A stretch of DNA of 64,000 bases from NCBI GenBank assembly GCA_003024175.1, contig MDYQ01000092.1, positions 31,401 through 95,400 of the forward strand, in the 5' to 3' direction. The translations under genes were made by a program, and so were the position numbers. The stretch is from Planoprotostelium fungivorum (Eukaryota; Evosea; Variosea; Cavosteliida; Cavosteliaceae). The notes below the pieces were generated by a model, which was not told the origin of the DNA, made no database searches, and worked only from the letters and a program-made list of their open reading frames with translations. Shown here in pieces: positions 35,146-64,000 of this stretch (position 1 is its first letter; each line of letters opens with the position of its first letter).

Positions 35146-38100
35146 TCAGACACCATCACCCGCACCACCACGCCTCACCCATTTGACTCTCTCCTTGTCT
35201 TCGTCCTCTGAGTAACGTAACAGCTGTCTGTGATACTCGTACGATTGGAGGCGCCACCTCAGGAGGGCATAGACAACAACGTGAGAGAAAGCCTTGACCG
35301 TACCGATGACGAAATAAGTCTGCCACACGTTGGCTGCATGGTTGATGCCCAGCCTGCGAGAGTAGTCGCTGTCGATGGTGTAGAGGGTGTAGAATTGTGC
35401 GGGGATTGCAATGACGGCGACTATGTCTGCCACGATGTACTGTTGAGCTAAGACGACGGACTCTGTCAATTTGTCTCCCTCCTCCGGGTCGATACCAAAG
35501 ACACTCGTCTGCGTCTGTTTCAAGTCAGAGGGGTGGGGTGATGACGACTCACGGCCATGCCAACTTTGACTTTGAAGTTGTTCCAAGCCCATGCGATGGT
35601 CTTCCCCAGCATACCTGAATTCCTGTAGATGGTCCACAGGCCCTGAAAGATGATGGAAAGCCAGAAGAGTAGTCCGGTGACCTGAATCGTCGATGAGAAG
35701 AGCCGCATCGATGATGTCACTTCACCTCTTTCCTGAGGAAGAGAAGGAAAGCCAAGAATTCTTCGAAGAACTGGAAACGGAAGACAAAGTGGAAGTACTT
35801 GTACTTGTAAGACATGCTCTTGGCGGCGTTTTTCATGAAGAAGGTGACGAAGAACATGAGAATACTCTGTCCAACTTGGAGGGCGAATCCTAGACCAGCG
35901 CTGCCACCTGCCTGAACGTACAGCTGTGCGATGACTTCCACAGGTACGTAGACGTAGGCTCCGATGAGGAAGAGGTAGTAGTAAAAGTGTGGAAAAGATC
36001 TGATGATGTCACTCCACGTCACTTGCGAAACATCGATTCACCTTGAGTAGTGAATGTTCTTCTCTGTCACAAAGATTCCTATCATGGGAATCATGGCAAC
36101 GAGTAAGGCAGTGCTGTACGGTTGGTTGTAGTACGTCGTCTTCAGGCTCATTCCAGCCTCACACCTGGAATAGGTCAATTCCGATCAATCGACTACAGAC
36201 TCACAGTCGGAAGACAATAAAGAGGAGGATGACAATGTGTGTGGCATACCAAACCTTTGTCTCTCCATCGGTCACCTTATCTCTCCTGATCTCCTCTGTT
36301 GAACAATGTGAATCTCTTGTGCAATCGAAATCGTATCACCTGGCTGAGCTCTTTCTTCCTCTGTGAGATGAAACGCGTTCGAATTGGCGGATTCGGGGCG
36401 TTTACCATCGATGGCTGTCAATTGTAGATCTGCCGTCTCGAATGCTCCTTGGATTCTACGGATGATGAAATACAGAGAGATGGGTAACAGAACGTAGTCA
36501 TTCAGTAACAATCCTGCGGTCTTGACGAGGTTAGCAACCTGTGTCATCGTCAGACGCATCACACGATGGATGTAGATGCGCACCACGCCGGGGCCAGAGC
36601 TCGCGGTGCTGTTGTAGACGTAGAAAGAGTACGGGAGGGTCAACACGATGTGAATCAGTGAACCAACGACGGAAATGGACCAATTGAGGTATTTGGGCAC
36701 CCAACCTCTGAATAAGATGATGGCCGTGTAGATTTTCCACACAAAATCCATCACGTCCCACACCAGCTCCAGAGTGAATACGTAGGCAGAATGCAACAGA
36801 CCTGTGGGTGATGAGAGGAGAGTGAGTGGAGACTGAATCACCCTCAGATATACCGATGTCGAGTAATGGGATACTGATGGCGATGACGAGATAGACTGCG
36901 AATCGAACGTATTTCCTGTTGCCCTCTAAAGTTGCGTTACGAGTGAAGATGAGGATGGCCGTGATGATGATGACGAAGAGAGCCAGAGACACTAGGGTCT
37001 GCCAGATGTAAAATCTGTCTCCTCCATCTGTCGACCGTCAACTTTTCGTGGGAGCGAAGATCTGGCTCACAGATGGAACAATCAACACCACTGTAAGATG
37101 GTTTACACTGACAGACGAAAGAGTTTTCCGTGCAATATCCTCCCTTCGTGTCACAGTAATCGGCACATTGTACTGTCCACCGTCAGCTTATCCATGTCCT
37201 TACCCTGCCTCTCACCGGTCGCCACGGAGCAATCAAAGTCGTAGAAGCCCGTCTCACACTGGCAAGCACCCTTTGACGTACAGTTACCGTGTCCACTACA
37301 ATTGTTGGGACAGAAGGAGGCCGAAGGGGTGTAATTTAGAGCTTTCTGTACATTGATGGCTCCCCAGCCAATGCGCACGTCGGGGCTAGACGCCGAGCTC
37401 GCAGATCGCATGAGAGCCTCGCGAATCTACCGCATTGAGCCTACTTACGATCTCCTTCACTCACTTGGATGTTCGTCCATTCAGGGTGATACTGTTTGAG
37501 GCACGCAGCCACACCTGCCACGTAAGGGGCAGAGACAGACGTACCGTCTTCCATGACGTAGCTAGTCGGGGTACTCGTCGACGCCGAATAAACGTCGACT
37601 CCCACCGCTGACACGTCTGGCTTGATCCTACCGTCTGCCGTGGGTCCTGTTGCATTTCAACGAGATTTCCGCCGATCTCCTCACCGATGGAAGAGAAGGA
37701 AGCGACGGTTCCGGTAGCATCCACGGCACCGACACCGATGGTGAGAGCGGCATCTGAAGGAGGAGAGATACCATCGGCTCCACGATTCCCCACGGCCATC
37801 ACTACAACGACTCCCTTCTGAACGGCTGTCTCACGTTCATCTGATGATCCGATGCAACGTCATCATCTTCACCTCGATTGATGGCTTGAGTGGTCCTTGC
37901 CGTCTGTCCATCGAATTGCGTCCAGTTGTAGAAAGAGTAATAACCGATGGAGATCGAGAAGATGTCGGCGCCTCTCAGTTCACCCCACACAACGGCGGCA
38001 GAGAACCAATCTTCCTCTAACGGAAAATCGGAGCCGACTTTCTCTGTCTTGGCCAATAGATATTCGGCGGCAGGAGCTGGACCTCTCATCTTACCGGGGG

Positions 38101-38951
38101 TATAGCCTGCGATCACCGAGAGGACGGCCGTACCGTGATCGTCTTGGGTCGCATCATCGTCTGTAGGCTGTGAGTGGTGCGTGTGCTGTGTTACTCTCAC
38201 CTGGCTTGTTGCCAACTCGCGTGTCGTTGTGGATGAAGTCATACTCATTGTGGACGCTGATGTTGTTGAAACATTCGTGGGCCAGATAGAATCCCGAATC
38301 GATGACTAAGACCCTCACACCTATTATTGTTTAGAGGTGAAACCTCTCGATGCATCATCAATCATCGCACCTGATCCATCCAGCCCGAGATCAGTTAGAA
38401 CAGTTGCAGACGTGGTGTTCCATTCATTCAATGATTTTCCGTAGTCAGTTCTCTTCCTGCTGGGCTTATCATCGGGCCCAACCTTTCGATCAGAAGAAAT
38501 TCTCTCGACGATGTCCAGTGATGTTACGAAAGAAAGATTCGCTAGTGCTGCTATCGCCCCTCTATTGGCCGAAGCGCTAACTGCATTGTGAAAATCTGAG
38601 ATGGTGCGAAGGTGGCCTGTTGGTATCGTCACATCTACGCCATTCTATACGTTCACCTCCGTATTCTTCCACTGTGCTTCTAACCTGCTCTTTGTATTCC
38701 ACGTTGATTGGAAGGTCCTCGAGTGACCATCGAGGTTCGCCGTGCAGCTCTCGTCTCGAGAGAGTCTTCTCGTCGATGTGAGGAGCCTTAGTGACAGAAG
38801 GTTTGTCTTTGAAATGAACCCAGACGGGTTGAACATCATCATCACTCGCTCGTGTTACAAATGCTTCTAGACGCCTAGATATCTTATTTGGGAAGCCATA
38901 GAAGGTGTGGAAGAAGATACAAAGGATCAGCAGCTGCCCGATGAGGCGCAT
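35146..38951 (-). CDS. Subtilisin-EGF-polytopic membrane fusion protein
   Basis: One gene appears to encode a signal peptide, an S8 protease, two EGF-like modules and a multi-pass membrane region. ATG 38951 gives MRLIGQLLILCIFFHTFYG. The catalytic Asp is in VRVLVIDSGFYLAH, His in DDHGTAVLSVIAG, the oxyanion Asn in VVVVMAVGNRG and Ser in GTSVSAPYVAG, so the triad is intact. EGF modules are CPNNCSGHGNCTS...CQCETGF and CADYCDTKGG...CQCKPSYSGVDCSI. Splicing the next GTGAGC...GACAG intron runs SGVDCSI in frame into YGGDRFYIWQTLVSLALFVI, the first membrane segment. I count about 10-13 hydrophobic segments after that (for example VVGSLIHIVLTLPYSFYVY, YYYLFLIGAYVYVPVEVIAQ), ending WVRRGGAGDGV. Dictyostelium Tag proteins join an S8 protease to an ABC transporter, but no ATPase motifs are seen here. 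Two adjacent genes remain the alternative. Confidence 0.8.
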
Positions 38952-39199
38952 GTTTCGATCTGCGTGGGATCCTGGGACGGACACACCTCCAAATTTAGAT
39001 AGCATAATTGTCTGACGTGATGGATTTATTTGAATTTATTTCCATACTCAGCAACTACCATAGAAGACCGAGAGACATACACAAGTGACTGGACTGGTAG
39101 GCACACATAACGAGATGTCTTTACATTATTTATTTCAGTTTTGAACAAGAGGACATCAGATGAAACTGCCGCCAGTCAATATCAACCGCTCCATGAGCC

Positions 39200-52889: not shown

Positions 52890-53132
52890 TAAAGTTTTGG
52901 TTTCTTGTAGTGATTGTCGATCGCGATCGATGGATGATTCGATGAATCGACACACAAAGAGAAGATCATCGAGGCCCCGACATACTCACAGACAGCGGAA
53001 GACCTCATAATTTGAGGTGATGCTCGAAGCGGAATCTGAACATTCCGATGTCTTGTGAGTTTCGTCAGGAACATCCATAGGGACTCTCTTTTCGTTATTT
53101 TCTGGATCACAAATATTCCGCCGCCCACAAGC

Positions 53133-54140
53133 ATGGCCACCACCTCTGACTTCTCTGCCTCTTCCCTGTATCGTCTCGATGGCCTTGTATCTGTTATCAC
53201 AGGAGGTAATGGACATCCCTAATCATTGTTGACGGAGTAGGTGCCACCGGTTTGGGCATGATGATGGCACGCACGTTTGCTGACAACGGGGCAACTGTAT
53301 ACATCCTAGGCCGAAGAGAGGACAGATTAAAGCAATCTGTTGAGAGCTACAAAGGAGATCGGGGGTCCATACGCCCCATTGTCTGCGACGTCACCGATCG
53401 CTCTTCCCTCTTGGCAGCGGCAGATGCCATCTCGAAGGAACAGAAGAGTGTTCACATCCTCGTCAATAATGCAGGAAGGGGTGTTCGACATCTCGCAGGC
53501 ATAGACGCCGCCATGCAAGCCGATGTCAACAAGATGAGAGACTTCTTGATGGCCGAGCCACAAAGCGACTGGGAGGATACGTTGAACGTCAACTTGACAG
53601 CCGGCTACTTCTGCACCGTCGCCTTCATGCCTCTGCTGGCCGCCGGAAGCGCAGAGAAGAGATACACCAGCCAAGTCATCTTCATCTCTTCCGTGATGGG
53701 CACATTGAAAGTCCCAATCGGCAGTTTGGCCTACCAAGTCTCGAAAGCTGGACTCAACCACCTCTCCAAATGCCTCGGAAACTTTCTCCTTCCTTTCAAC
53801 GTGCGCACCAACACGATGGCGCCAGGGTGAATGACGATCACGATGAGCTTACGATTCTGACGCCCTTTCAGATTCTTCCCTTCAGAGTTGTCCACACTGA
53901 AGCCGTCTGATGAGAACGGTAGGAATTCAGCAGAGGATATCGGTCCTCTAGCGGCAGCCATCACCCCCGCAAAGAGGATAGGACTGGAGGAAGAGATTGC
54001 ACAGACCGCCCTCTTCATGGCTACTAACCAATTCCTGGTGCGTTATTCGATTCTCATACGAGAAATTCATTTCGAAACAGAATGGAGCGATCATCAATGT
54101 CGATGGAGGCCTCCACCTAACTCTTCCCTCCACTTTCTAA
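53133..54140 (+). CDS. Short-chain dehydrogenase/reductase
   Basis: This is a classical SDR of unknown substrate. ATG 53133 reads MATTSDFSASSLYRLDGLVS then VITGG and, after a 35-nt intron, ATGLGMMMARTFADNGATVY (TGxxxGxG cofactor motif, here TGGATGLG). Further motifs: GRREDRLKQSVESY, DVTDRSSL, the NNAGRGV motif, NVNLTAGYF, the catalytic Ser in FISSVMG and the YxxxK pair in YQVSKAGLNH. After NTMAPG comes FFPSELSTL, RIGLEEEIAQTALFMAT, and the last exon GAIINVDGGLHLTLPSTF. ARG in GRRED suggests NADP preference. Not closely related to the SDR at 8622. Confidence 0.9.
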
Positions 54141-54304
54141 ACTCGTAGAATGGAAAACTCTTATTTTCCTTTATGACTGGATCGTCTTCGCTGTGAATTT
54201 AAGCTACTGGCCTTGATGCTGCGACCTGGTGTGCGGTGTAGAGCGCCAGACAAGTGTCGCTCGTGAGTCATTTCCGATCGAGCCGCACAAAAGAGGGAGT
54301 GTGA

Positions 54305-55378
54305 ATGAATCATGCCCCTCTGGAGCGTCCATTACAATCTCTCAGCGATAGACAATTGGACATAGTCTACCGATTTCATGATGTCATCCCTCTGGTAACA
54401 TGCACTTCGAAGCTCACTGCTGTAGTAATCTACCTCTTTGTATGCATCCGATCCAGCATGTTCACCAATCTTATCCTAATCACCGCGGTTGCTCATTTGA
54501 TCGACGTATTATTAGATTTCATACCGACGTATCGGTGAGTAGACGATCACCTCGAGATCCTAACAGTTCAATAGAGGGAGACTGAGATTACAGAACTTCA
54601 TCAACACACAACTTCGCGATAATTGGGTCCTCACCGAAGAAAGTCGAAAGATGATGAGTGAAAACAGACCATTTACGGCCACATTGCGATACACCATCGT
54701 AGCCCTCGCAGTCAATATTTTCATGTATAGTGAGTACCGATGCATCTTTTCCAATGTAACGTCCTCCAGCTCTCGTTCTCAAAGAGACTTCTCTCGTGTG
54801 GTGTTCACAAGATTTCGTCCTCCTCTCTTACTCTTGGCTCATCTTCCTCCTCTACGATCTCACGAGGCACATGGTATACGAATATCGCCACACGCGAAGG
54901 TGATCCCATCATCCTTCCCATCTGATCTCATCTCATCTCAGTCTCGATCCACTGAGAGACTGGTGCGCCTTCGGTGAGAGCTCCGTCTGCACTGGCGGAG
55001 TGATCACCCACTTTGCATCGTGGAACTCAGACTGCTCCTCTTCCTGGAAAGTCGAGTGTACCGAGACGAACGCTCGTCTCGTCCGCGGTAAATCCGCTCG
55101 CTTCATAGAAAAACAGAATCGAGACGGACAGCCGGTCATGTGCTTAGAGTTGAAGATATTCGATGTCTACAGAAACGCAGAGAGAGAGATAGTGGTGAGA
55201 GGAAGGGAAGACGAAGATTGAGTGAGAACAGATGCCTGTGCCGGAGGGAATGAAAGAGAAGGTGACGTACTGGGCCAACGAGTTTGCATCGGGAGGGTTC
55301 ATCACGGATGTCGTGTGGAAGAGACAAGAGAAGGAGATCAATTTCCCGTCTGATTCCATCATCATATCACCCCAGTAG
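54305..55378 (+). CDS. Membrane protein with about four N-terminal segments, unknown family
   Basis: The exons join cleanly. ATG 54305 reads MNHAPLERPLQSLSDRQLDI; hydrophobic segments are LTAVVIYLFVCIRSS, FTNLILITAVAHLIDVLLDF, LRYTIVALAVNIFMYTLVL and FVLLSYSWLIFLLYDLTRHM. A soluble C-terminal part follows: SLDPLRDWCAFGESSVCTGG, ASWNSDCSSSWKVECTETNA with several cysteines, ELKIFDVYRNAEREIV, and, across a phase-0 intron, MPVPEGMKEKVTYWANEFAS with a Lys-rich end and TAG at 55376. No family recognised. Cysteine spacing suggests a small disulphide or metal-binding domain. All splice sites are GT-AG and 30-60 nt. Confidence 0.7.
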
Positions 55379-55741
55379 GTGTACCGTAAGATTGTAGATA
55401 AAGTTTGAGTATATGCACGTAGTCCTTTACGTTTTCTGTACATATCAGTGACATTCCACCTTGAGTGTATGGAATTGTTGTGGTGTTGTGCAAACTCGAG
55501 ACAACAAGAGAGACTTATGCTATGATTGAAGAATTTGAAGGTGCTGCTGAAAGATGGGAGGTTGGATCTGCTCTCGCTATTCTTGACGACACAGCCCTCC
55601 ATCATGCATGCACTCTCTCACGCCTCACCTTATCTCTCCCAAGGAAGGTTTAAGGAGCCCTCTGGCTTCTTGGCTGTCAGTCTGTTGATGAGCTGCACGT
55701 ACTCAGCCCGCTCAGAATTAGAAGTGCGCCTTGCCATAGCT

Positions 55742-56322: not shown

Positions 56323-57224
56323 CTTTCGAAGCCCACAGAGAATAAAAGAGAGAGCCGCTCCGCAGAATTAGGACCATTCTTCAGAATGGAGCTGAATCAG
56401 CCTAAGCGTGGATTCTCTGTTTCTTCCTCCTTCCTTATCGCATCTGTTACGTGACCTTACTAAAGAGAAAGTTCTGAAGATACCTCTATTGCGTCGGTAG
56501 TGTATGTCGGAGGTGCTATCCTGCATTGACTGTCCATGAAGTCAAGTGGAGAAGGGAATGATGTTTGTCGAGGCATGATGTGCTAAGTATCTTTTCGCCG
56601 TCAGAGATCCACCCACGACCTCAGAAGAGGTGAAGAGAAGATAAATCCACAGATGTTGATCCTACAGCGTTGTAACGACCTCAGATGAAGCTTCGTGCTG
56701 AGAGCAACACTCATGAAGCAAATGATCAATCCGTCACAAGACATCGGCAGCAACCACATGAAGCTGATCATCATCTTCGTAGGAGGCTAATTGTCATCTT
56801 CATCATCTCTGTTGGTCTATCGTCTCGATGAGACAATCTCTCTAACACTCTGCACATATGTAAACTTTGAGGCTCATTTAACCCTTGTAACACTCGTCGT
56901 GGGGCGATGGATCCACAACTCTAAAGAGGATCAACTGCGTCACCCGCTAGATTCCGACCGAGATATTGTACGATGTATGTGATGCAGTCTCTGCCTGCGA
57001 TGAGCTTCTCTCCTCATATATACTCCTCCACATAAACTCCCTTCCGCTATCTTCAGATTCAGTTCTTTCCGTGTTAATCATGAATGACTGATTTTAGACG
57101 TACAGTATGAACTGTACGAAGAGGAGAATTTTAAACGATACTTCAAACGTAACCGAGGGAAAAGATGAGAAGAGATAGAATGTTGATGGAGAAGATAAAG
57201 TAGATGGAAGATATAGGATGACTC
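56323..57224. other. Intergenic, no gene recognised
   Basis: This is a 900-base stretch with only short unremarkable ORFs (the longest, 63 codons at 56791). It precedes the truncated CotH copy and looks like ordinary spacer. Confidence 0.45.
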
Positions 57225-58270
57225 CTCTCATTGACCTCCTGGCAACGACAACAGTCAAAGCCTCACGCTGGAAAGAAGTATCAAACTGGGCACCCTTCAA
57301 CTTGATTGACTGTACGACATTCAACAACTACAACCAGCCATTCTCTTCACCTTCTGTCCCTTCGTTTCATCTTCGAAGTGAATTCTGAACAACTTCTTTG
57401 CAAAGCCAGCAGAAATGTGTCCACTCCTTGAAATAGCTGCAGATATCGTCAGCCATTCATTTCGTCACGTTCCTTCTTATCAAACTTGATTTACATTCTT
57501 TAGAAGGAGAAGATAAGGAAGAGGTATCTCGCTGGCGTTGGTTTGGATGCTCTCCATCTTGTGATTGTAGGTGAGAAGAGAAGTCATCTCTTCTTCCGTT
57601 CCTTTGTGGCCCCTGATGATCTTCTCGAGAGAATCGGAGGACATGTTGATGCGGATCTGCGTGATGGTGGATATGTCTAAGAGGAAGTGATCGTCCTCGT
57701 ATCTGTCATCGATATCAGACGATGATGATGAAGATGTTGTAATGACGATGCCGCGATGACGCGTAGATCGTGTTTCGAAACCGATGAAGAATCGGTCGAC
57801 GTGTTGCGAAAACACACATTACAGGGTTATATAAGATGTGTATTTGATTTGATGGTGATATGCGTGATGACGATTATTAGATGAAATGGTGATCATGCAA
57901 CTCGCTTGTCTTTGACGTACTGCTTTCCTGGGATCACTTGAGGGATAGGAGTGATGGAACCTGCACTTCAAGTCATCCTCTTTAGTCAATGAACCTGCGG
58001 TTGTTTCCGTTATACATGTTCTGGCGAGTTTCGCCTTTTCTTTGCAAGATGTGAGACGATGTCAACAGACTCATTCTCACGTGCAGAAGAACGTCACATT
58101 GGTGAGTGGGCAGGCTTTGGAGCAGATCTGAAACGTACACTTCAGAGGTGGAGGAAGAGTGCATCCGATCACGAAGAGGAGGAGCAGACAACAGACGAAC
58201 GCTCCCATCTTCTTGTTAGACGGTTGGATTACTGCTGTTCTTGTGCGAATCCTGTCGCGGTACATTGTCA
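57225..58270 (-). pseudogene. Truncated duplicate of the CotH/EGF gene
   Basis: The segment parallels 1080-2545 base for base over long runs. It keeps the signal-peptide exon (MGAFVCCLLLLFVIGC, ATG about 58208), the N-terminal CotH exon (DDRYEDDHFLLDISTITQIR, then INMSSDSLEKII) and SIKLKGAQFDTSFQREALTV. It lacks the whole double-EGF exon (the counterpart of about 1830-2243 is gone), has lost the donor after the signal peptide, has a GCGAGT instead of GTGAGT at another donor, and stops matching at VARRSM, so the second half of the CotH domain is absent. A stop follows NNRRFID. It cannot make the parent protein. Confidence 0.88.
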
Positions 58271-58673
58271 CGACAGACATGGCTGATGATTCGTACAAAA
58301 TCACTCGGACGTTAAATAATACACACTCTTTGGAGGCCAAGTCACCTCAGGTTCTTGTTACAAGATACAAAGAAGGAGACTGACATCCAGATTACCCTGA
58401 ATAGCCACATGATTGGTAGCTGTGACACTTTGATGATCAGCTTGCAGCACTTCAAAACCTTCATCGTGACACAGGTGTTCATCTGAAGACGATCGGTCCA
58501 GTGAGCCAGTGTGATTCACTGGAGGTACCATCGATCCGTGATTAACTCAAATCTGAAGTTGAAGGCATCATGCAATTTGAAGCCGCGATATCCCTCTCTG
58601 AAGTCATAGTGCATAGCTGCATGTTGAGTCAGTAATCAGCTCCCAATTTATTTCAAAAAGAAATCAGATTCCC
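58271..58673. other. Intergenic; one weak exon-like ORF
   Basis: On the minus strand around 58514-58625 an open frame reads AMHYDFREGYRGFKLHDAFN then FRFELITDRWYLQ; it looks protein-like, but no adjoining exon or start was found. The last 30 bases are the AT-rich leader of the next gene. Confidence 0.3.
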
Positions 58674-59055
58674 ATGATGCGTCACATCACAATCCTCCTG
58701 TTAGTGGTTCTGTTATCAAATCTGATGGCAGGGTGAAAATCGAATGGGTTTTGGTTCCTTATAATGCAATAGACAAGAGGTACCTACGAATCAGTGGGCT
58801 GTCCAATTAAAGAAGGAGGCAGACCCAGAACGAACGGCAGAGTCGCACGGGTTCACATATAAATCCTCCATTGGATCATTGCCAGACCATTATCTGTTCG
58901 AAAAGAAGTCTGACACCATTATCGGTGAGACACATCCAAAGCTCGAGGACGACCCAAATGTTCTTTGGTCAGAACGACAGGTAACGACAGTGATATCCCA
59001 CGATGGTAATTCTGGATAGATTCTCAGACAAAGAGCGAAGAGGGATGAACTATGA
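58674..59055 (+). CDS. Free-standing proprotein-convertase propeptide ending in RDEL
   Basis: Three exons (58674-58732, 58773-58980, 59020-59055) join in frame across 40- and 39-nt GT-AG introns to a 100-residue protein. It has a signal peptide, MMRHITILLLVVLLSNLMAG. It then matches the S8 pro-domain of kexin/furin enzymes: PTNQWAVQLKKEAD, AESHGFTYKSSIGSLPDHY, LFEKK, LEDDPNVLWSERQ, and the convertase cleavage motif RQRAKR. Instead of entering the catalytic domain, the frame ends DEL-stop, giving a C-terminal KRDEL, an ER-retrieval-type tail. No catalytic D/H/S motifs follow within the next 250 bases. It may act as a retained inhibitor or chaperone of a convertase elsewhere, or be the 5' remnant of a decayed protease gene. 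The fold assignment is strong; the role is inference. Confidence 0.75.
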
Positions 59056-59291
59056 TAGTACTATCTCTCAGTTCCTCCAACATCCACAATCTTCGCACAT
59101 TCCACAGATGCTGTCTCCATAATGGAATAAAAGGAAAAGATGGTTCATCCATCGCGATCGATCGACACCATCTCATGCGTGACATCATCTATTCCGATCA
59201 TCAATCGAGCGGATTCTTCGCTCTAGATCCAGCAGTGATTGGTATTCTTCCTTCAGTTCTACTTTGATTCAGCACTCTCTCTTGACATCCA

Positions 59292-60105
59292 TCACTCACC
59301 CTGCACCGTGTTCTGAATGTGTTGAACGGTGGATCTCGAATGCTCCTCCTCTACACCACCGTACATGGTCCCCACTCTGTCCTCGATCTGCATCAATTTA
59401 TCTGAGAGGCTCAAGATCAGCTCTGCTCTCGATTGCTCTGCCTCGGTGTCAGAGTCGAAGGGAAGAGACGGCAGACTCACCTTCTACAAAGTAGAAGAAG
59501 ACAGAATTGGACCTCTGCTGGCTGAAGTCTTGAACCCACAGCTCGGCCGACGGGTAGTTGTTCGCCTGTGCGTGCGGTGTGAAGCACCACAGCTCGTTGT
59601 CCGAGATCAAGGCGGTCGCAGCCGGTCTGTGGTTCCAATACACGACCGACGTGTGAGTGAAGCCTGCAGAGGTGAGGAGATGACACAGGTGACGTCCATC
59701 ACCCTCTCCAAAGATCTTGATGCCGTTCTCTCGGGACATCGATCCCCTCTCTGGGAGGATCTTCTTGATGGAGAGACTTCTCATCCTCCTCTCCGAAGGC
59801 ATGGGTGGCACGTCTGGTCTGTCTCCACGGCCCTCGCTCATGCTGGGGAAGCTGTCATCGAGTGGGTGAGAGATCTTCATCCTCTTGTTGTCCGATTTGA
59901 TCGGGGGGAGGACGATGGGCTGTGTCTCTGCACCTGTGGTTCGTCAGCTGTGGGGTGTGGGGGTGGACTTACGATCGTTGGCCACGACAAAACTGATCTC
60001 CATGGGAGAGAATTGGGGTCCCAGAGAACGACTGATGGGAGCGCTGGAGAGGGAGGAGATCGTAGCGGCTACGCCCAGGGTCGATGGTGGTTGTGCATAA
60101 GCCAT
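59292..60105 (-). CDS. Hypothetical protein, unknown family
   Basis: Exons join from ATG 60105: MAYAQPPSTLGVAATISSLS, FSPMEISFVVANDR, then AETQPIVLPPIKSDNKRMKI, a Ser/Pro/Glu-rich stretch, LSIKKILPERGSMSRENGI, then a globular-looking core FGEGDGRHLCHLLTSAGFTH, SVVYWNHRPAATALISDN, ELWCFTPHAQANNY and WVQDFSQQRSNSVFFYFVE. The final exon is a helix, ELILSLSDKLMQIEDRVGTM, ending NTVQ; splicing at GTGAGT joins directly to TAG, and reading through also stops two codons later. Repeated W/F positions suggest a beta-rich fold. I cannot name it. The opposite-strand 278-codon ORF is its shadow. Confidence 0.65.
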
Positions 60106-60235
60106 CTGATAATGTCAGACGGTGATGCAAGCGAGACGATTTACTCTCATGTCCCCGCGGCCTAGATGTTGCCTGGGTGACTCGACGTCTCTAAATCGAA
60201 CGCATTCATGTGGATGTGTCTTTGCTGTATGGAGT

Positions 60236-60761
60236 TTAGAGATTTCTTCGTCGTTGAATGGGCTCACAATAGTAGTGAATGAGATATGTCTCGAAACCCT
60301 CCAAGCAGAAGAGCCACTTTCCAAATCGAAAGTTCTCTCCACGATTGTGGTTCTTTAAGACATATGTCCTCTTGTAGCCTGATACTATCTTGGATTCTCC
60401 ATCATAAAGCTTTGTTGGTCTTCCATTTTGATCAAATGTCCCTCTGAGAGTCTTATGGTCGGTCCCATCGCCTGTGAAGAAATATATCATTCCACCTGCA
60501 TTTTGTTATTCCATGCTAGAGCCACCCTCCCTGTAACTCACTGGTGACCTCCGCTGGATGGACTGCCAAAACTGGGATGACCAATCCTTCTATTTGAGGG
60601 GGTACAGAAGACTTATCTCGCAGGTCCATCAGGAGTTGAACATATTGAACATTTTTCTGCATAAAGGCACATCTCGGAATGGGGCGATGCCATGATGTTC
60701 CCTCTTGTATAATAAGCCCTGAGCCCAATTGAGTTGTATCCATCGGACGAACCTCCGTCAT
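60236..60761 (-). CDS. Hypothetical protein, two exons
   Basis: ATG 60761 reads MTEVRPMDTTQLGSGLIIQE, then PIPRCAFMQKNVQYVQLLMD and IEGLVIPVLAVHPAEV; an intron (GTGAGTTACAGG...ATGCAG) joins it to GMIYFFTGDGTDHKTLRGTF, DQNGRPTKLYDGESKIVSGY and KRTYVLKNHNRGENFRFGKW, ending EPIQRRRNL. The second exon has a beta-strand/turn pattern (G-D-G-T-D-H-K, D-Q-N-G-R-P) like a small beta-sandwich. No family recognised. Confidence 0.55.
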
Positions 60762-60910
60762 TGTCTAATCCGTTCTTGACCCCACACGGTAAACGGGGAG
60801 GAATACGCTTTTGCGTAACAGGCTCAATTCGGTTGTAGATATGGAATAAATGAACATGAATATTAAGTCCCATCAATTCTGTGATCTCTTCATGATCCCC
60901 TCCTCTTCTT

Positions 60911-62600
60911 TCATTTCTTCTGTAGGGTCTTCTCCATGTTTTCCACGATCTCATTCAACCTTTCCTTCTCTTCCCGGGCCAACTGCCTCGCCATGCTCCT
61001 CCGGTAGCTCTCCACCTCTCCCATCTCTTTCGGATAACGCTGTAGAATCCTCTTCAAGTGAGAGAGACAAGCACGTACGGCGGACCTCTCTCTCCTCTCC
61101 TCTTCAAAGGGCCTTCTGGGATCCATCCTCCCTTCAAAGTCCAATTCAGACATTCGATGCACTCGAGTGCAGGTGAGGATGTCACGGTGAGAAGAAGAAG
61201 AGACGTAGACAAAGTCACTGCCGCCGCGTCAGAAGGACACCGAACGAGACGCACCCGTCCAGTTGTAGAGCGGACAAGATGTCCGCGCGCTGATCGGACA
61301 GTGGAGTGTTTCTCTCGGTGGGAGCTATGGAGGGTATCATGACACCATCGTCCTCGGGCACTTCCAACAAGAATCCATAGTCCATCATCAGCTGTCCGTT
61401 CGTCATCTTTCTCCTCCCATACCTCAGGTAGATCTATCTGTCATCAGTCTTCTCCTCCGTGCATTGTTCTCTCACTTCTTCTCCCTCTCTGATATCCTTC
61501 TTCGCTCGCACGATCATTCCTCCCTCCCCCGTACCTTCTTCTCCCTCGTAGAGTGTCAGAGACACAGTGATGAAGGAAGGTCACCGTCACATCTTCCTCT
61601 CCCCTGTAGTTGAACATGTCTGAGATGGGAACGAGTGCACCACCCTTCTCTCCTCGATTGTCCGTCACGACGAAAGACCTCGACCAGATGACTGACGGTT
61701 GTCATTCACTTTGAATGGATGAGAGATATCACTTGAGAGGGAGTAGATGAAATCGTCCAGTGTGAATCGATGCAGACCTGATGAGGTGAGATGGAGGATG
61801 GATGGATGTCACCTGATGCGGGGACTCGGCCCTGCAGTCGTTCCATCACGTCTGAATAGAATCCTTGCAGCGATCTCTTCTTACGGAGAGTGAAATCTGC
61901 ATCGGTCAGGAGGTGATGAGAAGAGAGACGTACGGTACAAAGAGGAACCTTGCAGCTCTTGCAGTTCTTCGTCGGTCCAATGGATGGTGGTGTCCATTCT
62001 ATCGGGGAAGCTCACTGCGAGATTAGATGCGTTTGTTATTCTTCCTCACTCGTGTAAGGATGATATTCAGACAGACTGTCGTTTCTCTGCTGGAGTAAGA
62101 AGAGGGCCATCAAGTGTAAGTCGCTTATTCCTTCTCTCCAACTATCGTCACCCGCCTGCATTCCATCATGATTCGTTTCTCGAAAACGACTCACGGGAAA
62201 CGAACAAGTGTCTTCGATGTGTTTTTGAAGGAAGAGGAGACTGTTGATTGGCGCGATGACGAGACGATCGGGGACGTATAAGATCTCTTCACCCAACTAC
62301 ATCTCGACTGAGCCAGATCGTGACAGAGAGTTCGTGTCATTCACCTTGATGTTCTCTGTGGCATACACGCCACGACCTTTGTCTGAGCGGAAATCAATCA
62401 CTGTCTCGTTTTTCCGTCGTACCCTTCGAATTCCTCACAACTAATTTGGGAAAACGAGCTCCTCCACTCCTCGCCCACGACAACATATCGACGACTTCTT
62501 GTTCCGAGCCGATCGTCTCTCCAGCGATGGAGGAACATAACAAGTAAAGAAACAAGACACACCTCGAATGAGGGGTGACCAGCCCTACATTAGGAGACAT
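60911..62600 (-). CDS. SET-domain lysine methyltransferase (SETD3/SETD6/LSMT type)
   Basis: This non-histone lysine methyltransferase class has a split SET domain plus a C-terminal substrate-binding region. Exons give VVDMLSWARSGGARFPKLVV, KGRGVYATENIKLGEEILYV (the G-R-G-V-Y-A SAM motif), PDRLVIAPIN, LMALFLLQQRNDSLSEYHPY, WTDEELQELQGSSLYR, FTLDDFIYSLS, WSRSFVV, GALVPISDMFNYR, IREGEEIYLRYG and RRKMTNGQLMMDYGFLLEVP, then a basic helix and LNEIVENMEKTLQKK. The motif D-M-F-N-Y has Tyr where most relatives have His (N-H). The N-terminus before residue 20 is hydrophobic (CVLFLYLLCSS) and may be wrong; 62600 is the first ATG in frame. Substrate unknown. Confidence 0.88.
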
Positions 62601-62998
62601 CAGAAGTGATTCTGTGAAAAGGGAAGCTGAAATGCGGTGTGTCAAAAACGGAGACTGCGAAATGCGAGGAGGAATATACTGTCTACATTTCCAGTCGTCG
62701 GCTCATCCAAAACATCACATAACCGGTAAAACGAGACCGGCTAAGATCTAAAAGACAGACATGACTGTGAGCTAATCTATCATCTGACTCGATATTAGAG
62801 ATATCCATCGAGTTGGTCGGAGCTTTCTTTCTGATATATCATAGGATAAAGCCACCCTCCTGCAATTCGTCCAAGCAACGGATTGGAATTCTCGTATCCT
62901 CTGATATTCTTTTCTATTCTGAAAGCATCGTAATGACCTCTGCAAGAGACATTTAGCGGAGATCTTTCATCATGTTCCTTAACTCTCATAGATTTAAA
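62601..62998. other. Intergenic; likely first exon of the Rho gene
   Basis: I see no complete gene. A 64-codon minus-strand ORF at 62795-62989 has no family signal. The missing start of the Rho gene may be here. Confidence 0.4.
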
Positions 62999-63998
62999 TG
63001 ACCCTGTTGTGGTGAATCACGTAGCGGCCATCAAATCACATGTTGGAGGAGGTTCCGCACCAACTCTCGCAGCAGCCACAGGAGGAAGTACTTCTAGCAG
63101 TGGAAGCGAGAAGCGTGTGAAATGTGTCGTGGTGAGTTGACTCGATTTCCCTTCGACATCCGTTAAATTTTCTCTTCAGGTCGGCGATGGTGCCGTAGGA
63201 AAAACCTCTCTTCTTATTCGTTACTCTTCCGGCACGTTCCCCACTGATTATGTGAGATCTCCCATCATCCTCTCATCCTCTCTGATATCATGCAGCTCCC
63301 CACCGTCTTTGACAACCACACTGCACATATGAACCGTAACGGAGAGAAGATCACCCTGCATCTGTGAGTCACCTCTTTTCCTTCTCCATCTCATCCATCT
63401 CAGGTGGGATACTGCCGGCCAGGAAGACTACGATGTGAGTTCATCTGTGACATCTTTTATTGACCGAAGCAGCGTCTTCGACCTCTCAGCTATCCAGGAG
63501 CTGACGTCATCCTCCTCTGCTTCTCCACCGTCAACCAATCGTCTTATGATGCCATCCGCGAGAAGGTGAGAGGAACAAACGATCTCTTCTCACTCTCTCA
63601 GTGGGCACCTGAAGTCCAACACTACATTCCCAACATCCCCCACATTCTCATCGGCACCAAGATCGATCTGAGGTGATGATGATTCCATCACGGACGCATG
63701 CTGAAGACGAGACAGAGAAGAGAAGACACCCGACCCCAACTCTGGGTTGTTTGAGCCCCTGACGGCAGAGAACGGAGCGGCCATGGCAAAGGAGATCGGA
63801 GCGACAAAGTACATGGAGATCTGCTCAAAGAATGGACAGGGTATCGAAGAGGTCTTCAATGAGGCCGTAGACCAGGCATTGAGGGACAGAGCTGCCGCGG
63901 AAGGAAGTGCCGTCGCCAGCGGTGGAGCCGCCGCCGCCGCGTCTCCCGTCATCAGACCCGGAAAGAAGACGAAAAAGCAGGGCTGCATGCTCATGTGA
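62999..63998 (+). CDS. Rho/Rac-family small GTPase with N-terminal extension (start unresolved)
   Basis: This switch protein controls the actin cytoskeleton. Seven or so exons give a Ser/Gly/Ala-rich extension ([31 protein letters not shown]) and then the G-domain: [20 protein letters not shown] (P-loop), [20 protein letters not shown] (switch I with the effector Thr), [13 protein letters not shown] (switch II), [32 protein letters not shown] (T-K-x-D), a Rho-type stretch, and [20 protein letters not shown]. The C-terminus is Ala-rich, then [11 protein letters not shown]: a polybasic region and the prenylation box CMLM. No in-frame ATG lies upstream of the extension before a stop at about 62934, so the initiating exon is not identified; the first codons given here are approximate. 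Confidence 0.9.
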
Positions 63999-64000
63999 AA

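Follow-up and report, generated by a model that had tools for sequence, protein, structure and literature searches.

The locus PROFUN_09955 of Planoprotostelium fungivorum (Amoebozoa, Variosea) raises the question of whether a convertase propeptide can be a gene in its own right, equipped to act early in the secretory pathway, or whether it is what remains of a protease. It lies at the end of contig C26 of the 36.9-Mb genome, and the whole stretch of DNA analysed, 64,000 nucleotides in length, is referred to here as the window. Three predicted exons between positions 58674 and 59055 join in frame to encode 100 residues: a signal peptide, a propeptide of the kexin/furin type, the basic motif RQRAKR and, directly before the stop codon, DEL. 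This model, with its GT-AG introns of 40 and 39 nt, had been proposed by a sequence-only reading and was reproduced by in-frame joining of the DNA. We refer to the gene and its predicted product as the orphan.

All parts of the model are on the forward strand. Exon 1 (58674 to 58732) carries the start codon and the signal peptide MMRHITILLLVVLLSNLMAG, with a best 12-residue hydropathy of 2.78, and its last codon is split by intron 1 (58733 to 58772; AGG/GTGAAA...CAATAG/AC). This 40-nt intron has weak splice sites; among the GT dinucleotides of the window, 43% score as high as its donor. Exon 2 (58773 to 58980) holds the body of the propeptide, from QEVPTNQWAVQL to DDPNVLWSERQ, and is followed by the 39-nt intron 2 (58981 to 59019; CAG/GTAACG...GGATAG/AT), whose donor score is equalled by 9% of all GT. 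Exon 3 (59020 to 59055) encodes ILRQRAKRDEL and the stop codon, up to which it is free of GT, and a possible polyadenylation signal, AATAAA, is found at 59126 to 59131, 71 nt past the stop. The splice-site scoring model was derived from 23 introns in 69 candidate frame pairs, several of them seemingly false; by this small and impure sample, intron 2 does not fall below the ordinary level, and intron 1 is weak.

The deposited protein P0001 (PROFUN_09955, 102 aa) has exon 2 in common with this model and differs from it at both ends. Its first exon (MQFEAAISLSEVIVHSCMLSQ), placed at 58570 to approximately 58631 by matching P0001 to the DNA, has no strongly hydrophobic stretch (hydropathy 1.58) and a donor score of 1.0, compared with 2.5 for exon 1 of the joined model. 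At the other end, intron 2 is retained, its final TAG serves as the stop, and the protein ends in VTTVISHDGNSG. Intron 2 comprises 13 codons, the last of them an in-frame TAG, so that its retention closes the protein before RxKR and RDEL; both features depend on the splicing of this intron. The deposited protein therefore has the pro-domain but no signal peptide, RxKR or DEL. The sequence-only reading had described all three of these signals; the signal peptide is strong by hydropathy and the cleavage motif and C-terminal RDEL are present in the spliced model, and all are absent from the deposited one.

Both predicted ends were compared with chance expectation in the window. On both strands together, 11 of 8,426 AG acceptors were preceded by an in-phase ATG exon of at least the observed hydrophobicity, and all 11 draw on one and the same exon, namely exon 1; with a laxer threshold of 2.5, 25 acceptors qualified. 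A GT-AG join that places RxKR or RxRR at exactly residues 5 to 8 past the donor was available to 57 of 7,567 GT donors (0.75%), and one that places it within about the first 12 residues to 345 (4.6%), both counts including the orphan's own donors. Judged by such sequence comparisons, chance is an unlikely source of the predicted anatomy, which we regard as real.

With regard to the identity of the protein, the spliced model matched the Pfam S8_pro-domain (PF16470) over profile positions 1 to 79 of 79, with 56.4 bits (E 4.8e-15) against a curated cut-off of 25.5 and against 35.9 bits for the propeptide of the genome's own kexin. The domain extends from 58792 to 59043 (residues 27 to 97) and is interrupted by intron 2; the exon 2 frame alone, or the deposited model, reaches 48.1 bits over positions 1 to 73, and the joining of exon 3 supplies the remainder. 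The scan, carried out to E 10, yielded PF16470 and a sub-threshold DUF4606 only, with no match to Inhibitor_I9 (MEROPS I9) and no serpin domain. Among sequences of solved structures, three matched at E ≤ 10, all of them PC1/3 prodomains (best 2.3e-7). An AlphaFold model, calculated for the deposited protein P0001 with 31 relatives, had a mean pLDDT of 86.2 and a core of about 97 to 98. Its five best PDB matches were variants of the PC1/3 prodomain, in four cases on furin; the best was a PC1/3 prodomain (E 2.8e-4; TM 0.54 by query and 0.66 by target), and two were found at E ≤ 0.001. The assignment to the S8 pro-domains made from the letters alone was thus borne out, and the identity as a convertase propeptide is secure.

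No protease was found at the locus. In six-frame searches run exon by exon, neither a catalytic nor a P domain was detected in the vicinity of the gene on C26, or on a second contig, C418, and no S8 match was detected downstream of the orphan on C26. Read-through into a protease was rejected: exon 3 contains no GT before its stop, no S8 match follows, and a kexin query matched only contig C116. The sequence-only reading of a propeptide alone is supported in that no catalytic domain was found into which the frame could continue. A convergent frame on the minus strand ends near 59292, about 240 bases past the orphan's stop, and the contig itself ends at 64000, 4.9 kb beyond the orphan. Together with the GT-free exon 3, these boundaries make the orphan, by its predicted model, a gene of its own outside any protease precursor. 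The sole S8 matches on C26 belong to an unrelated gene at 37.5 to 38.2 kb. This is a subtilase gene of another kind (36272 to 39035, minus strand), about 20 kb from the orphan, in which S8 catalytic exons are followed by an EGF-like stretch below the Pfam cut-offs and by hydrophobic segments; its product is perhaps a membrane-bound subtilase, and not a kexin.

Contig C418 (10,849 bases) matches 58478 to 64000 at 99.66% and 53054 to 55507 at 99.35%, and the two contigs terminate at the same base; the first 2,637 bases of C418 have no counterpart in the window. The 420 bases from the orphan's start codon are identical on both contigs, and the list of differences is empty between 58606 and 64000. 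We take C418 to represent this locus once more, as an allele or an assembly duplicate, and not a second locus. As no difference occurs after 58605, C418 provides no independent confirmation of the orphan and is uninformative about selection. The 2.9 kb directly 5' of the orphan on C26 (55508 to 58378) are missing from C418. Within this missing part lies a segment (57209 to 58265) with an 85%/72% identical counterpart at about 1059 to 2541, at the other end of the window.

A search for full convertases, which the sequence-only reading had suggested as a check, identified one true kexin genome-wide, at 206006 to 208297 of contig C116 and thus on a contig other than the orphan's. The P domain was matched once in the whole genome, and a kexin catalytic/P query gave six matches, all on C116; these searches were run exon by exon with the best candidates scored, so that strongly split genes could be missed. 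A search with the kexin propeptide gave four matches: two to kexin itself, one to the orphan and one to the orphan's copy on C418. By our model, the kexin gene is interrupted by 10 introns and encodes 562 residues, the last of which, shortly past the P domain, read FGHQL and form no xDEL tail. Compared with this model, the deposited kexin P0002 lacks 15 propeptide residues, which are present in relatives, and 8 catalytic residues. The only kexin found in the genome is thus, on the evidence of its sequence, mis-annotated, and deposited models can err around short introns. The orphan aligns with this kexin without gaps, with 37 of 91 columns identical when the signal peptide is included and 32 of 77 in the propeptide, and the intron positions differ between the two genes.

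The same genome encodes an ERD2 retrieval receptor (contig C459). Among 48 ER-type loci, named from Pfam matches only, six xDEL ends were found on calreticulin, thioredoxin-domain and HSP70 loci, four of them KDEL and two HDEL, and none was RDEL; an EDEL string on the other strand of one locus (L059) was excluded. The orphan's tail is the single occurrence of [KRH]DEL-stop in the six frames of the 64-kb window. RDEL has been reported to bind the vertebrate KDEL receptor at 2.71 uM, compared with 1.94 for KDEL and 0.24 for HDEL, and RDEL proteins were retained in cells (PMC8248988).

The predicted cleavage or docking motif RQRAKR occupies 59026 to 59043 (residues 92 to 97, with RxKR at 94 to 97), and the putative ER retrieval signal RDEL, with its stop, occupies 59041 to 59055 (residues 97 to 100). 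Arg97 is therefore common to both, as P1 of the cleavage site and as residue -4 of RDEL, and a cut behind it would destroy the retrieval signal. ILRQRAKR stands opposite VRRLRAKR of the genome's own kexin without a gap and with 5 of 8 residues identical; among 74 convertase propeptides, the residue corresponding to R97 is present in 70 and that corresponding to K96 in 43. One full convertase, P0104, also has KR-D-E after its cleavage site, and the DE of the orphan may therefore be inherited. If DE is ancestral, only the final L and the stop may be new, and the tail may owe its origin to a stop codon just behind an inherited DE(L).

A further feature that may bear on function is the stretch corresponding to the loop of the secondary cleavage. 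Convertase prodomains are described as potent inhibitors that are normally destroyed by secondary cleavage within a basic loop, which histidine protonation on the way to the late Golgi promotes and which releases the enzyme; in PC1/3, removal of the multibasic sites of the loop, with or without the His72 sensor, resulted in stable, potent inhibitors (PMC12405487). The orphan has KK (FEKKS) where its own kexin has KR (FRKRF), and one loop histidine compared with five in kexin and three to five in 19 of the 23 other rows of its clade. One histidine is also found in the clade members P0099 and P0112, and none or one in 31 of 51 propeptides outside the clade; the low histidine count is thus, on this alignment, not special to the orphan. 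The loop features, the tail and the propeptide together suggest a stable inhibitor acting in trans and held in the early secretory pathway.

A related short gene with the tail conserved, which the sequence-only reading had proposed to look for, did not turn up. The orphan query gave two candidates and one match, and a query with 14 propeptides gave 149 candidates and two matches, these being the orphan itself and P0122, a predicted protein of 60 residues from a metagenome contig of 1,034 bases, which we take for a gene fragment extending into an intron and not for a stand-alone relative. These searches used a word filter and a length limit, which makes them weak evidence that stand-alone relatives are absent. 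The kexin query gave 1,126 matches; among the 120 listed, P0003 was 63% identical over 96% of kexin. Of 119 listed convertases, 73 were used and 46 dropped for a weak or short match; the resulting tree comprised 75 propeptides. The orphan fell into a clade of 24 rows with the P. fungivorum kexin (support 97/91; midpoint rooting), at an unresolved position; we call this clade amoeba-like, as it holds that kexin and transcriptome proteins. Within it, the kexin and P0003 form a pair (99/96) from which the orphan is excluded, suggesting that the orphan is an old duplicate. From the same unresolved fork, the branch of the orphan measures 0.66 and that of kexin 0.53 (0.27 + 0.26), which by these lengths speaks for no strong slowdown or speed-up on the orphan branch either way. 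The alignment contains 75 columns, too few to date the loss of the protease part.

Constraint on the orphan was assessed from conserved columns and from codons. The orphan keeps 16 of the 18 columns in which one residue is present in at least 50 of the 74 convertase propeptides, Gly35 and Gly51 being missing, and all 13 of those in which one residue is present in at least 60. Over 76 codons, its differences from kexin by codon position are 33/24/52 and thus most frequent at third positions, with a dN of 0.53; dS is saturated, so that no dN/dS ratio can be given. This comparison of sequences shows constraint at the protein level through much of the orphan's history, not necessarily since it became a stand-alone gene.

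Considered together, we regard an ER-recycled inhibitor acting in trans on the amoeba's own kexin as the most likely function, at a probability of roughly 0.4. The product would be a secretory-pathway protein consisting solely of a kexin propeptide, which would enter the ER through its signal peptide and adopt the convertase prodomain fold. RQRAKR would then enter the active-site cleft of kexin in trans, as kexin's own propeptide does in cis. As long as the C-terminus is intact, ERD2 in the Golgi would catch RDEL and return the protein to the ER; the orphan would thus circulate through the ER and early Golgi, where it would hold kexin back from acting too early. A cut by kexin after Arg97 would remove DEL and leave an ordinary propeptide, still inhibitory and no longer retrieved. 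Since such a cut removes the return signal, retrieval of the inhibitor would be set by the activity of the convertase itself. We consider this self-cancelling retention, in which the uncut inhibitor returns to the ER and the cut one becomes a normal propeptide, a rather doubtful element of the scheme. We infer that the gene is transcribed and both of its introns are spliced, that its product binds and inhibits kexin and is retrieved, and that cleavage is coupled to release. The sequence-only reading had already favoured an ER-retained inhibitor or folding helper; the propeptide, the signal-peptide exon, the candidate target kexin, and ERD2 with the KDEL and HDEL proteins speak for this idea, and the deposited annotation disagrees with the underlying gene model at both ends.

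In a competing explanation, the propeptide is functional and intron 2 is retained, as in the deposited model or in a mix of the two gene models, so that the protein ends in VTTVISHDGNSG, has neither RxKR nor RDEL and is secreted or untargeted. It matches the deposited prediction, and retention leaves the reading frame complete, the intron being 13 codons long and closed by an in-frame TAG. Homology and the chance controls nevertheless favour the joined model: with exon 3 the profile match becomes complete and rises from 48.1 to 56.4 bits, the joined end aligns gap-free with kexin's own cleavage site, an exactly placed RxKR or RxRR is reachable from just 57 of 7,567 donors, and a comparable signal-peptide exon is rare. 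Moreover, the deposited kexin model is itself incomplete, missing 15 residues of the propeptide and 8 of the catalytic domain. We therefore consider retention improbable.

The sequence-only reading had itself named a decayed protease as the alternative. In its present form, this explanation holds that the orphan is a second kexin gene, recently truncated or decaying, whose catalytic part was deleted and whose frame stops after DEL by chance. That a propeptide-only gene is known from one species would fit such a history, as would the DE that follows KR in the real convertase P0104; the evidence of conservation is not dated to after the loss of the catalytic part, and branches of 0.66 and 0.53 indicate no strong change of rate either way. 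The explanation is weakened by a reading frame without internal stop or frameshift, by the retention of all 13 of the most conserved positions, by a Pfam score above that of the true kexin's propeptide, and by a signal-peptide exon that is still in place; furthermore, no catalytic remnant was detected on C26 or C418 by Pfam S8 or by the kexin query, all six matches of which lie on C116. Truncation is, on balance, unlikely. Least probable among the alternatives is an ER-retained propeptide that assists the folding of kexin in trans instead of restraining the enzyme. Convertase prodomains are described as intramolecular chaperones (PMC12405487), and an ER-retrieved tail would fit such a role; however, the kexin on C116 already carries a complete propeptide in cis, and the orphan has kept RQRAKR, which is not obviously needed for chaperoning.

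Inhibition of kexin by the orphan would not be without parallel, as stand-alone subtilase propeptides with inhibitory activity are established, with SUB1-ProM and examples from Pleurotus, yeast, Arabidopsis and Toxoplasma given in PMC6993865. SUB1-ProM of Plasmodium is, like the orphan, a small protist protein that consists of a subtilase propeptide only and has its own gene. According to the same source, that gene lies beside the SUB genes; its product, located in the parasitophorous vacuole, was shown by assay to inhibit SUB1 and resembles the SUB1 propeptide in structure with little sequence similarity (PMC6993865). The orphan differs in being of the kexin type, in lying on a contig apart from its kexin and in carrying RxKR and RDEL, and its inhibitory activity is putative. 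Other protease-free proteins with a propeptide-like fold are peptidase A inhibitor 1 of Pleurotus, the yeast peptidase B inhibitor and subtilisin propeptide like inhibitor 1 of Arabidopsis, all three of MEROPS family I9, as well as TgMIC5 of Toxoplasma (PMC6993865). Unlike these, the orphan matches PF16470 and no I9 model, and matches the kexin propeptide of its own genome without a gap.

The combination of a convertase bait with an ER retrieval tail is known from the Drosophila serpin Spn4A, whose tail is HDEL (PMC4147316); the orphan has no serpin domain, and its bait and tail overlap at Arg97. Engineered, isolated convertase prodomains likewise have a loop without an arginine-type dibasic site, and the orphan would be a natural counterpart. 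The kexin on C116, whose propeptide is identical to the orphan's at 32 of 77 positions, differs in having catalytic and P domains and its FGHQL end. By analogy, the orphan most likely resembles SUB1-ProM in logic and Spn4A in targeting. The apparent novelty lies in a propeptide of the kexin type that has its own gene and ends in an ER tail overlapping the cleavage site.

If the proposed function is correct, this would be, to our knowledge, the first natural stand-alone, ER-targeted gene for a convertase-type propeptide. None of the matches listed in the literature search, which covered titles and the beginnings of abstracts, with subscription papers outside its scope, described such a protein, and the name PROFUN_09955 was not found in that literature. 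Evolution would then have made what engineers have built, namely a free prodomain whose loop lacks the usual arginine site, serving as a compartment-specific brake, and kexin would be restrained in the early secretory pathway by something besides its own propeptide. Through the overlap of cleavage site and tail, kexin would, in a simple circuit, stop its own inhibitor from being recycled.

One minor observation concerns the kexin propeptides of the amoeba-like clade (P0003 to P0019 and others), which have in common a histidine-rich loop close to xHGxTHPHH. In our view, this loop perhaps acts as the pH sensor in amoebae, in place of the histidine of furin and PC1.
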